Below the pieces are notes generated by a model that ran no database searches, was not told the DNA's origin, and saw only the letters and a list, made by a program, of their open reading frames with translations. Source: Bacteroidota bacterium (GTDB taxonomy: Bacteria; Bacteroidota; Bacteroidia; 2-12-FULL-35-15). Taken from it: 45,901 bases of DNA. The translations under genes and the position numbers were made by a program. The stretch covers positions 8,774 through 54,674 of the forward strand of contig JAHEYB010000019.1 of assembly GCA_023251805.1 (NCBI GenBank), read 5' to 3'. How positions within the stretch are numbered: the stretch's first letter is position 1; the number at the start of each line of letters is the position of its first letter. This document shows, one piece after another, positions 4,741 through 35,390 of the stretch.

Positions 4741-5319
4741 ATGGGAGGAGAATTAAAACATACATTGTCAAAAGCCTCTGCTCTCGATCAAGAGATTATC
4801 GAACAATTTCGAAATGAACAAACGCGCAACTATGCGTTTAATCTACTAGTTCGGGAATATCAAAAACGACTTTACTGGCACATCCGAAAAATTATTCTCA
4901 ATCACGATGACACGGATGATGTGTTACAAAACGTTTTCATAAAAATTTGGCGGAACCTCGAAAACTTCAAGGAGGAATCTCAACTCTACACTTGGATGTA
5001 TCGCATTGCTACCAACGAATCAATCAACTTTTTAAATCAAAAGAAAAAACGAGCCGGCATTCCTCTGGATGACGTATCCGCATTCTTAGCAAATAACCTC
5101 GAAAGTGATAGTTATTACAAAGGTGATGAAATACAAACCAAACTTCAAAAAGCTATATTGACCTTACCCGATAAACAACGTATTGTTTTTAATATGAAAT
5201 ATTTTGATGAAATGAAATATGAGGAGATGAGCAAAATCTTGGAAACATCAGTGGGAGCGCTAAAGGCATCTTATCATCACGCAGTAAAAAAAATTGAAGA
5301 TTATCTTACCAAAGATTAA
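4741..5319 (+). CDS. RNA polymerase sigma factor, ECF subfamily
   Basis: A 192-aa sigma-70 family protein with only regions 2 and 4, as in ECF factors. Region 2 covers about 30-100 (EYQKRLYWHIRK, DDTDDVLQNVFIKIWRNL, QLYTWMYRIATNESINFL), matching the -10 recognition and core-binding helices. Region 4 is about 135-190 (LPDKQRIVFNMKYF, EEMSKILETSVGALKASYHHA), the helix-turn-helix. It directs RNA polymerase to a small regulon, commonly an envelope response. The next genes (5352, 5988) run the same way 32 and 9 bases apart and encode a membrane protein and an exported protein: the usual sigma/anti-sigma/target layout. The regulon is not visible from the sequence. Confidence 0.93.
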   Translation: MGGELKHTLSKASALDQEIIEQFRNEQTRNYAFNLLVREYQKRLYWHIRKIILNHDDTDDVLQNVFIKIWRNLENFKEESQLYTWMYRIATNESINFLNQKKKRAGIPLDDVSAFLANNLESDSYYKGDEIQTKLQKAILTLPDKQRIVFNMKYFDEMKYEEMSKILETSVGALKASYHHAVKKIEDYLTKD

Positions 5320-5351: not shown

Positions 5352-5978
5352 ATGAACAACGACAATAACATATCAAACGAGGATAACGATTTAAACGAAA
5401 TGGCTCCTAAGCTCTCAAAGCTTAAGTCCAACAACCCGTTGTGTCACACTGAGCGCCTCACTCTGGGCGGAGTCGAAGAGCGAAGTGCGTCCAACGTTTA
5501 TTTTGATGCCTTTACTTCTAAATTACAAAATCGCATTGATGATGAAGAAGAAATTAAAGCGTTTGCTCCTACTCTCTTAAGTATAGATAAATACAATCCT
5601 TTTGAAGTTCCTCCTGATTATTTTGAAGAACTTCCTACTATTGTTCAAGAACGAGTTATTCAAAGCAAAAACACTTCTTCTTTTGAATGGCTTTTTTTGT
5701 TATTCAAACCTCGCTTCGCAATTCCCTTTATTGCCATTATTTGCATTTCTTTTGCCGGAATTTATTACATGAATAATCAAACCACTATTAAAAACGAAGC
5801 CAATGAAGAACTTTCGTTGGAAGATCACTTGTACTACATTGATGAAGCTGATATTGTAGAACAATTGACAGCAGATGCTTCCACAGAAAATGAAAACATT
5901 TCTGACGATGAAAATAGTATCGAAAATTATCTTTTAGAAAACAATATTGAAGAATCAAATTTACATAACGAATTATAA
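5352..5978 (+). CDS. Single-pass membrane protein, probable anti-sigma partner, with in-frame repeat insertion
   Basis: A 208-aa acidic protein with one transmembrane helix at about 119-137 (FAIPFIAIICISFAGIYYM). The cytoplasmic part contains NPFEVPPDYFEELPTIVQERV, of a type I recognise from genes directly downstream of ECF sigma factors in Bacteroidota; by position and topology it is a likely anti-sigma factor, though I see no named zinc-binding anti-sigma motif. The C-terminal part is acidic and extracytoplasmic. The N-terminal region holds a 21-residue stretch (CHTERLTLGG, VEERSAS) encoded by an inserted dispersed repeat. Removing the insert leaves LKSN joined directly to VYFDAF. The ATG at 5352 is the first plausible start after the sigma gene. 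Confidence 0.7.
   Translation: MNNDNNISNEDNDLNEMAPKLSKLKSNNPLCHTERLTLGGVEERSASNVYFDAFTSKLQNRIDDEEEIKAFAPTLLSIDKYNPFEVPPDYFEELPTIVQERVIQSKNTSSFEWLFLLFKPRFAIPFIAIICISFAGIYYMNNQTTIKNEANEELSLEDHLYYIDEADIVEQLTADASTENENISDDENSIENYLLENNIEESNLHNEL
5426..5495. repeat. 63-bp dispersed repeat inserted in frame, flanked by 7-bp direct repeats
   Basis: GTCCAAC occurs at 5426-5432 and 5489-5495, exactly 63 bases apart. Between them lies GTGTCACACTGAGCG and GGCGGAGTCGAAGAGCG, the same sequence family as the repeats at 18013-18135 and 34844-34867 (CACTGAG, CTTCGACT and their complements). The direct repeats look like a target-site duplication and the length keeps the reading frame. Confidence 0.75.
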
Positions 5979-18012: not shown

Positions 18013-18135
18013 AAGTCTTCGACTCCGCTCAGACTGACGCTCCGTAGCACTGAGTAGTTCGTTTACGTTCAGACTATTGCTCCGTCACACTGAGTACTTC
18101 GACTACGCTCAGTATAAACTAAGTCGAAGTGTCCT
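18013..18135. repeat. Composite block of CTTCGACT/CACTGAG repeats
   Basis: Within 123 bases are three variants of CTTCGACTCCGCTCAG / CACTGAGTAGTTCG / CACTGAGTACTTCGACT and an inverted AGTCGAAGTG. Each contains CACTGAG or CGCTCAG arms that can fold with the next. It is a dispersed intergenic repeat, filling the gap between the aminotransferase and the Asp-box protein. Confidence 0.75.
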
Positions 18136-23884: not shown

Positions 23885-23904
23885 TTAGGAGACAATATTA
23901 GAAT

Positions 23905-24011
23905 CGTCATTGCGAGTCCCGCCCCGAGCACTCGGGGCTGGATGTGGCAATCTCACACGATAATGATTAGAATTACAATTAGGAGGGATTGCTTCGTACC
24001 TCGCAATGACG
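23905..24011. repeat. 107-bp element with terminal inverted repeats
   Basis: Starts CGTCATTGCGAG and ends with its exact complement CTCGCAATGACG. The 5' half has CCCCGAGCACTCGGGG (an internal hairpin) and GGATGTGGCAATCTC, and the 3' half GGATTGCTTCG. It has no ORF. The same element, 108 bp, is at 33154-33261. It looks like a MITE-type or palindromic dispersed repeat. Confidence 0.85.
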
Positions 24012-33050: not shown

Positions 33051-33153
33051 ATGGTTTTTTAGGGAAATGGAACGCGGATTACGCTGAAAAAAGGGATAAA
33101 AACGGATTTTATAAAGGGAAAGTCAATTGATGAGAAAAATGAATGATACGAAT

Positions 33154-33261
33154 CGTCATTGCGAGTCACGCCCCGAGTAGTCGGGGCAGGATGTGGCAAT
33201 CTCTTCTAATAAAAGATTCGAATTTTCAACTAGGAGATCCCGTGTCGTTGCAAGGATGACG
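33154..33261. repeat. 108-bp element with terminal inverted repeats
   Basis: Begins CGTCATTGCGAG and ends GGATGACG; the 5' 60 bases match 23905-24011 closely (GCCCCGAG, TCGGGGC, GGATGTGGCAATCTC), while the 3' end is less conserved (GTTGCAAGGATGACG). No ORF. Confidence 0.8.
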
Positions 33262-34421: not shown

Positions 34422-35390
34422 ATGAAAAAACAAGTCGGAATATTTGTCCCATTCATTTTAGTCGCAATTGCAATAAGTTCTTGCAGCGCTCCACGTTCAA
34501 TCTTGACCTCCGGAAAAGTACTTCCCAAAAACCAGGTTCGTTTCGGAAAAAACACCACATTTAATATTTCATCAGCACCTATTGAACGCTCCATCAAAGG
34601 CTCTATGGATTTAGCAGAAAATGTTTCTAGCAGTGATACGGTTATTTACAACAACCAAATTGCTAATTTAAATTCAGCAGTTATGGCCTATTGCCTCGAC
34701 CCTATTGGTTACAATACCGAAACATTTTTTAGGTACGGATTGGGACATCGACTAGATATGGGATTTAGAAATACAGGAGGTGCTAATGCTTTTGATATGA
34801 TGTATCAATTTATGGGTTCAAACAAAAATTGCAATGAATCCGGCCCTTCGACTACGCTCAGGGTGACTGGTGGATTTTATGGAAGTATCGGAGCTCAATA
34901 TTCATGGCATAATTACCGCTTTGTAAATTTTTACAAATTTGATAAAATTCAAAAACTTTTTGGTTTGGAAATGGAGCGAAAAGACATTACTATTCCATTG
35001 GTTTTTAGTAAATCGTTTGGGCCGGAAGAGCGTGTTGGTTGCTTTTCGTTTGGATTAGTTTATTCTCATAGTTTTATCAATTACAAAATAAGCCCTAAAA
35101 ATATTTATTCGGAAGAAATTATTGCTAACGTTCCAAGAGAATTGCTTCTACCTGTTTCTGGAAAAACACAATTTGATGCTTATGGAACATTTATCAATAT
35201 TAAATTGGGAAAAAAATATGTGTTCTTCAACTTCTCATTGGCAGCCTATTATCAAAATTATGGCCGATATCCAATGTTAGGAGGCTCCAATGTGCTGTTA
35301 AAAGGGATAAGCATTGTTCCGTCATACGGAATGCAATTCAACATTTTTCCAAAAACTAAAAAGAAAGTTGACGAAGGGATCCAAATCTAA
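34422..35390 (+). CDS. Outer-envelope lipoprotein of unknown function, with in-frame repeat fragment
   Basis: A 322-aa protein with a lipoprotein signal ending ISSC (Cys21). The mature part has alternating hydrophobic/polar strands (RYGLGHRLDMGFRN, FGLVYSHSFINYKI, FINIKLGKKYVFFNFSLAAYY, SIVPSYGMQFNIF), compatible with a small beta-barrel or barrel-like outer-membrane protein. No family name is assigned. Residues about 142-149 (GPSTTLRVT) come from a dispersed repeat fragment (34844-34867) within the coding sequence; both neighbouring strands look intact around it. The start at 34422 gives the signal peptide directly. Divergent from the YCF48-like gene. Confidence 0.7.
   Translation: MKKQVGIFVPFILVAIAISSCSAPRSILTSGKVLPKNQVRFGKNTTFNISSAPIERSIKGSMDLAENVSSSDTVIYNNQIANLNSAVMAYCLDPIGYNTETFFRYGLGHRLDMGFRNTGGANAFDMMYQFMGSNKNCNESGPSTTLRVTGGFYGSIGAQYSWHNYRFVNFYKFDKIQKLFGLEMERKDITIPLVFSKSFGPEERVGCFSFGLVYSHSFINYKISPKNIYSEEIIANVPRELLLPVSGKTQFDAYGTFINIKLGKKYVFFNFSLAAYYQNYGRYPMLGGSNVLLKGISIVPSYGMQFNIFPKTKKKVDEGIQI
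34844..34867. repeat. 24-bp fragment of the CTTCGACT dispersed repeat inside a coding region
   Basis: CCCTTCGACTACGCTCAGGG plus TGAC, the same motif as in 18013-18135 and (as complement) in the 5426-5495 insertion. It is in frame and adds no stop. Confidence 0.7.

Follow-up and report, generated by a model that had tools for sequence, protein, structure and literature searches.

A nested palindromic repeat carried in frame by a probable anti-sigma factor gene of a Bacteroidota bacterium

The probable anti-sigma factor gene that follows an ECF sigma factor gene in the window (the whole stretch of DNA that was analysed, 45,901 nucleotides) contains a dispersed palindromic repeat as an in-frame insertion, as the first-pass annotation had proposed, and copies of the same family lie in frame in other genes. 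The insert reads as two 25-nt elements, one nested in the loop of the other (Table 1). Taken as a whole, the explanation we consider likely is that this compound insert is translated within a disordered linker of the anti-sigma factor, where the added peptide is probably tolerated more than useful. Insertion of palindromes in frame within genes is a known yet uncommon event; here it comes without a target-site duplication. Filled and empty sites in alignable genes reveal the effect of insertion on the target, and among related species the anti-sigma locus offers empty, single-element, nested and apparently decayed states of one site.

The compound insert and its host gene

The host frame is uninterrupted over 208 residues. 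At the loci checked its relatives adjoin the same ECF sigma factor gene, and the NPF-x5-YF motif is common to them across Bacteroidota. A Pfam search of the product gave no match; its designation as a probable anti-sigma factor comes from the gene position and a predicted membrane-length helix, not from a family match. The structure model, which is poor overall (mean pLDDT 63), places the compound insert in coil (pLDDT <50) preceding a helix. We considered the insert as a piece of a folded domain, and this was ruled out by the low-confidence predicted coil. The predicted translation across the insert includes SNNPLCHTERLTLGGVEER.

The first-pass annotation had delimited the repeat by two copies of GTCCAAC, and counted 21 added residues. 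Both copies are present, at 5426–5432 and 5489–5495 with a spacing of 63 nt, and removing 63 nt joins LKSN to VYFDAF as claimed. The boundaries drawn from them (5426–5495) are wrong, as the repeat itself spans 5442–5487. The three closest relatives (L062–L064; 70–72% protein identity) have an empty site, with five residues (NPSES or SPSDS) between NPF and YF where the window gene has nineteen (CHTERLTLGGVEERSASNV), a net gain of 14 residues (42 nt); the expectation that relatives would lack exactly 21 residues was not borne out.

The inner element carries a CCTC tag. The nested architecture recurs in at least five further copies in the genome, and a nested intergenic copy (G000:C36:65850) is 91% identical to 5442–5487 over 46 nt.

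Table 1. Positions of the features in the window
Feature	Positions	Strand	Remarks
ECF sigma factor gene	4741..5319	+	Pfam Sigma70_r2, Sigma70_r4_2
Probable anti-sigma factor gene	5352..5978	+	N-terminal NPF-x5-YF; one predicted membrane-length helix; no Pfam match
Upstream GTCCAAC	5426..5432	+	Native codons, kept in insert-free relatives; not a target-site duplication
Compound palindromic repeat	5442..5487	+	46 nt inserted in frame; 42 nt longer than in empty-site relatives
Outer element, 5' part	5442..5455	+	TGTCACACTGAGCG
Inner whole element	5456..5480	+	CCTCACTCTGGGCGGAGTCGAAGAG, in place of the outer element's NAGT
Outer element, 3' part	5481..5487	+	CGAAGTG
Downstream GTCCAAC	5489..5495	+	Within native linker codons (ASN opposite PSE / MSD in the alignment); coincidental match
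Intergenic copies of the CTGAGCGNAGTCGAAG family	18016..18130	.	Include an inverted pair
Second gene with an in-frame copy	34422..35390	+	322 aa; lipoprotein-like start; no Pfam match
In-frame copy inside 34422–35390	34842..34868	-	Net +21 nt; empty site in G003 and G011

The repeat family and known palindromic repeats

The consensus of the repeat is YGTCA-xy-CTGAGCGNAGTCGAAG-y'x', a hairpin-forming element of 25 nt with YGTCA at its end, arms that covary over a short stem, and a constant 12-nt loop. We found 199 matches to CTGAGCGNAGTCGAAG at two mismatches or fewer in the 2.98-Mb genome of the uncultured source bacterium, an incomplete draft (80%), and none to a reversed-pattern control, which upholds the earlier assignment of the interior to a dispersed family. 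Across 146 distinct copies the arms covary, with position 1 paired in 86% and position 2 in 92%, compared with 29% and 41% expected if the positions were independent. The stem around the 12-nt core comprises only two covarying pairs, together with CT/AG and, in addition, a partly paired A-T. The end tag is CGTC in 97 copies and TGTC in 31 of the 146, close pairs are mostly inverted (37/48), and the letters 3' of the stem are mixed, with no CCA tail. The folds of single elements differ from one another, and an Rfam search with the element returned no match. At one mismatch or fewer, the pattern is abundant as well in the nearest genomes of the same genus (G035, 183; G011, 124; G003, 105), and it is rare or missing in the remaining genomes compared, with none in G023.

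Repeats with a CGTC tag have been described, including in Bacteroidetes, with intragenic copies in UvrD/Rep helicase and tRNA synthetase genes among others; different REPs also occupy nearly the same position in recB of two Xanthomonas species (Di Nocera et al. 2013, PMC3733652). Like that superfamily, the CTGAGCGNAGTCGAAG family has an unpaired CGTC, TGTC or CCTC at one end, a palindrome of 20–40 bp in high copy number, clustered copies that are mostly head-to-head or tail-to-tail dimers, and no flanking transposase, the last as judged at the full-length Y1 transposase locus only. The four published families have a stem of 8–9 bp, a loop of 4–5 nt and a CCA tail, whereas the CTGAGCGNAGTCGAAG family has a covarying stem of about 4–5 bp around a fixed 12-nt core and lacks the tail; because stem and tail differ, we file it as CGTC-REP-like, outside the four families. 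We did not find the nested form, with NAGT replaced, described in PMC3733652, and the limited open-access literature yielded no prior description of the family.

Two other systems invite comparison. In-frame palindromes in genes are given as the hallmark of the Rickettsia palindromic elements (RPEs; Ogata et al., via PMC2229807, PMC10969869 and PMC3733652), two of which, RPE-4 and RPE-6, are assigned to the CGTC elements. By these descriptions, both systems are dispersed palindromes translated in frame within conserved genes, but the best known RPEs measure about 100–150 bp, whereas the element here is 25 nt and its copies are mostly intergenic. The GTAG REPs, associated with RAYT (IS200/IS605-like) transposases, are likewise short hairpin repeats in high copy number, often in inverted pairs; the GTAG end and a repeat-flanked RAYT are both absent from the CTGAGCGNAGTCGAAG family.

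Two further repeat arrangements were seen. Half elements form a tandem array at G000:C29:18233-18300 (L005), with GTCACACTGAGTAC repeated, which suggests growth of the 5' half by slippage. Another dispersed CGTC-type family, CGTCATTGCGAG...GCAATCTC, is intergenic at 23901–23954 and 33150–33203, and near 24001 and 24374.

In-frame copies in other genes

Copies are depleted from genes: 9 of the 146 lie inside long genes (at least 40 codons inside a frame of at least 200 codons, such DNA making up 68% of that sampled), against a chance expectation of about 99. In-frame copies occur in genes for LeuRS, ArgS, MetH, UvrD, an FtsK-like protein (labelled from sequence only), a glycosyltransferase, an FAD-dependent oxidoreductase and the anti-sigma factor, among others, and in-gene copies are read in four of the six frames.

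The cleanest filled and empty pair is the second window gene, 34422–35390. Where its relatives (84–85% identity) read GAATCCGATAAAGGTGG, the window gene reads GAATCCG-26 nt-GGTGG; 26 nt have taken the place of 5 nt and nothing is duplicated. Net inserts relative to relatives are +18 nt in ArgS and +15 nt in MetH; outside 34422–35390, the numbers of replaced bases are approximate, with ancestral linkers deduced from relatives at 59–85% identity.

In LeuRS of the source genome, the CGTC-type element is nested in a different palindrome, CCCTCTCC..., which relatives also have at that site. This site, the boundary of the editing domain (CP1; L163–L192), has the CCCTCTCC-type palindrome in several species and a DUF559 insertion in G006, G014, G004 and G040. 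The same LeuRS gene (L163) has two more insert-like stretches, ISPSPRGQGEAW and KPKSPFSKGTPSEEGGKGDD, resembling translated copies of palindromes from other families. Near residue 118 of MetH (L193, L213 and L216), the source genome has its CGTC-type element, and another palindrome is apparently present in G013 and possibly in G022; this loop looks permissive and repeatedly used.

Insertion history and mechanism

At the anti-sigma locus, two more distant relatives, in G006 and G031 (61% and 59% identity; L065/L066), carry a single element at the identical codon, TGTCAT[A/T]CTGAGCGGAGTCGAAGTATG, for a net gain of 21 nt. Divergent orthologues sharing the insert, which the first-pass annotation had named as the observation that would count against it, therefore exist as far as the position goes, but they hold one element only. 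With the inner element removed, the insert of the window gene and those of L065/L066 have the same start, frame and length, codon for codon. G023 (L068) has a twelve-residue linker, HQTEKSHIASDD, that resembles a decayed copy, although its genome has no pattern matches; homology of this linker to the repeat insert is only suggestive from the sequence. Among ECF sigma factor relatives in the genome contigs, we found no closer species carrying the insert.

A five-gene tree groups the window gene's genome with those of L062–L064 (100/99), then with L065/L066 (100/100) and then with L068 (85/83), and on this tree the distribution of the insert needs two changes. A clade uniting the source genome with G006 and G031, which would explain the shared insert, was rejected (p-AU 0.00013). 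The coincidence of start, frame and length leads us to prefer a history with a single old gain, a nested addition and a loss: one element would have entered the linker before the split from G006/G031, the source lineage would later have gained a second element in the loop of the first, and the ancestor of G003/G011/G035 would have lost the insert.

Alternatively, one permissive linker may have received the repeat two or three times. The in-gene copies of the source genome, G006 and G031 are still near consensus despite strong protein divergence. This helps such a history, and a neutral old insert explains it less well than separate recent insertions, or conversion by other copies, would. Recurrent insertion, in which the linker was hit independently in the source and G006/G031 lineages through its permissiveness or a site preference of the element, is accordingly a possibility that we regard as real if somewhat doubtful. 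In its favour, the insert is missing from the closest relatives, genomes rich in the family have near-consensus elements and the one in G023 is decayed, and several palindrome families have hit both LeuRS at the CP1 boundary and MetH close to residue 118. Recurrence does not readily account for the coincidence of start, frame and length with L065/L066, given that net gains in other genes vary (+15, +18 and +21 nt). Near-consensus DNA retained in three species could also reflect domestication, with a peptide or mRNA hairpin selected for a function such as tuning anti-sigma translation or sigma binding. We think this very unlikely; sister species do without the insert, the linker that contains it is predicted to be disordered, and the compound folds no better than shuffled sequences (z 0.4 as DNA and 0.1 as RNA).

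The pair of GTCCAAC copies on either side of the insert had been read as a 7-bp target-site duplication, as cut-and-paste or MITE-type transposition would leave. The upstream copy predates the insertion, since the SNNP codons containing it, part of an SNNPF stretch, are kept in the empty-site relatives, and it does not abut the element at the 5' side. A survey of the genome for short duplications around copies found a shared word of at least 7 nt within 25 nt on either side of 11/146 copies, compared with 3.9% of shuffled flank pairs, and none comparable to that proposed here. This excess is weak and the family is rich in inverted dimers, so a shared 7-mer at the anti-sigma copy is unremarkable. 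The replacement of 5 nt by 26 nt in 34422–35390, few bases being exchanged and none duplicated, argues against ordinary transposition. We regard cut-and-paste or MITE-type transposition with a 7-bp duplication as extremely improbable.

Each insertion would replace roughly 4 to 10 target nucleotides (net gains of 21, 18 and 15 nt), as expected were the hairpin copied in through break repair or template switching and not by a cut-and-paste transposase. Copies in genes last only with a net length that is a multiple of three, an open frame and a flexible protein loop. The spread of CGTC-type repeats, with no linked transposase, has been left open (PMC3733652). A fuller scheme, which we put forward as speculative and unlikely, is that nuclease-provoked break repair replaces a few target bases, with GAGCG / CGAAG in another copy as a preferred self-target, and that homing-type endonucleases, for example the DUF559 proteins whose genes are bracketed by other palindromes, act in trans to drive the palindrome families of the clade. 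If true, permissive protein loops would be docking sites for unrelated palindromes, used repeatedly.

Two candidate mobilisers of the CTGAGCGNAGTCGAAG family were rejected. The sole full-length Y1 transposase gene of the genome (G000:C4) has no copy of the family within about 1.5 kb, and the RAYT candidate was set aside, its locus holding a GTCCCTACGGGAC palindrome and none of this family. DUF559 was set aside in the same way, none of the family being present at the DUF559 loci whose flanking palindromes were inspected. The Y1 (REP-type) gene itself (L091, G000:C4:125692-126036) lies beside repeated GTCCCTACGGGAC palindromes of a different REP family.

The DUF559 (PF04480) genes of the clade are an observation in their own right. 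Same-family GC-rich palindromes lie within 200 bp on both sides of 14 of 23 such genes, and of 12 of 4000 random places, a control that is conservative if anything, as the loci sampled for it overlap in part with the DUF559 loci themselves. The brackets are inverted copies of one palindrome, for example CCCCTCTCCAAAGGAGAGGGG ... CCCCTCTCCTTTGGAGAGGGG. A search of the limited open-access literature for DUF559 with palindromes or homing found nothing relevant, and the palindrome-bracketed DUF559 genes may be more novel than the anti-sigma insert. Palindrome and DUF559 together possibly form an autonomous palindrome-endonuclease element. Bracketed DUF559 endonuclease genes were seen in relatives at L254, L255, L256, L257, L258, L262, L263, L270 and L183, and several bracketed genes lie in frame inside MetH, LeuRS and acetyl-CoA-synthetase-like genes.
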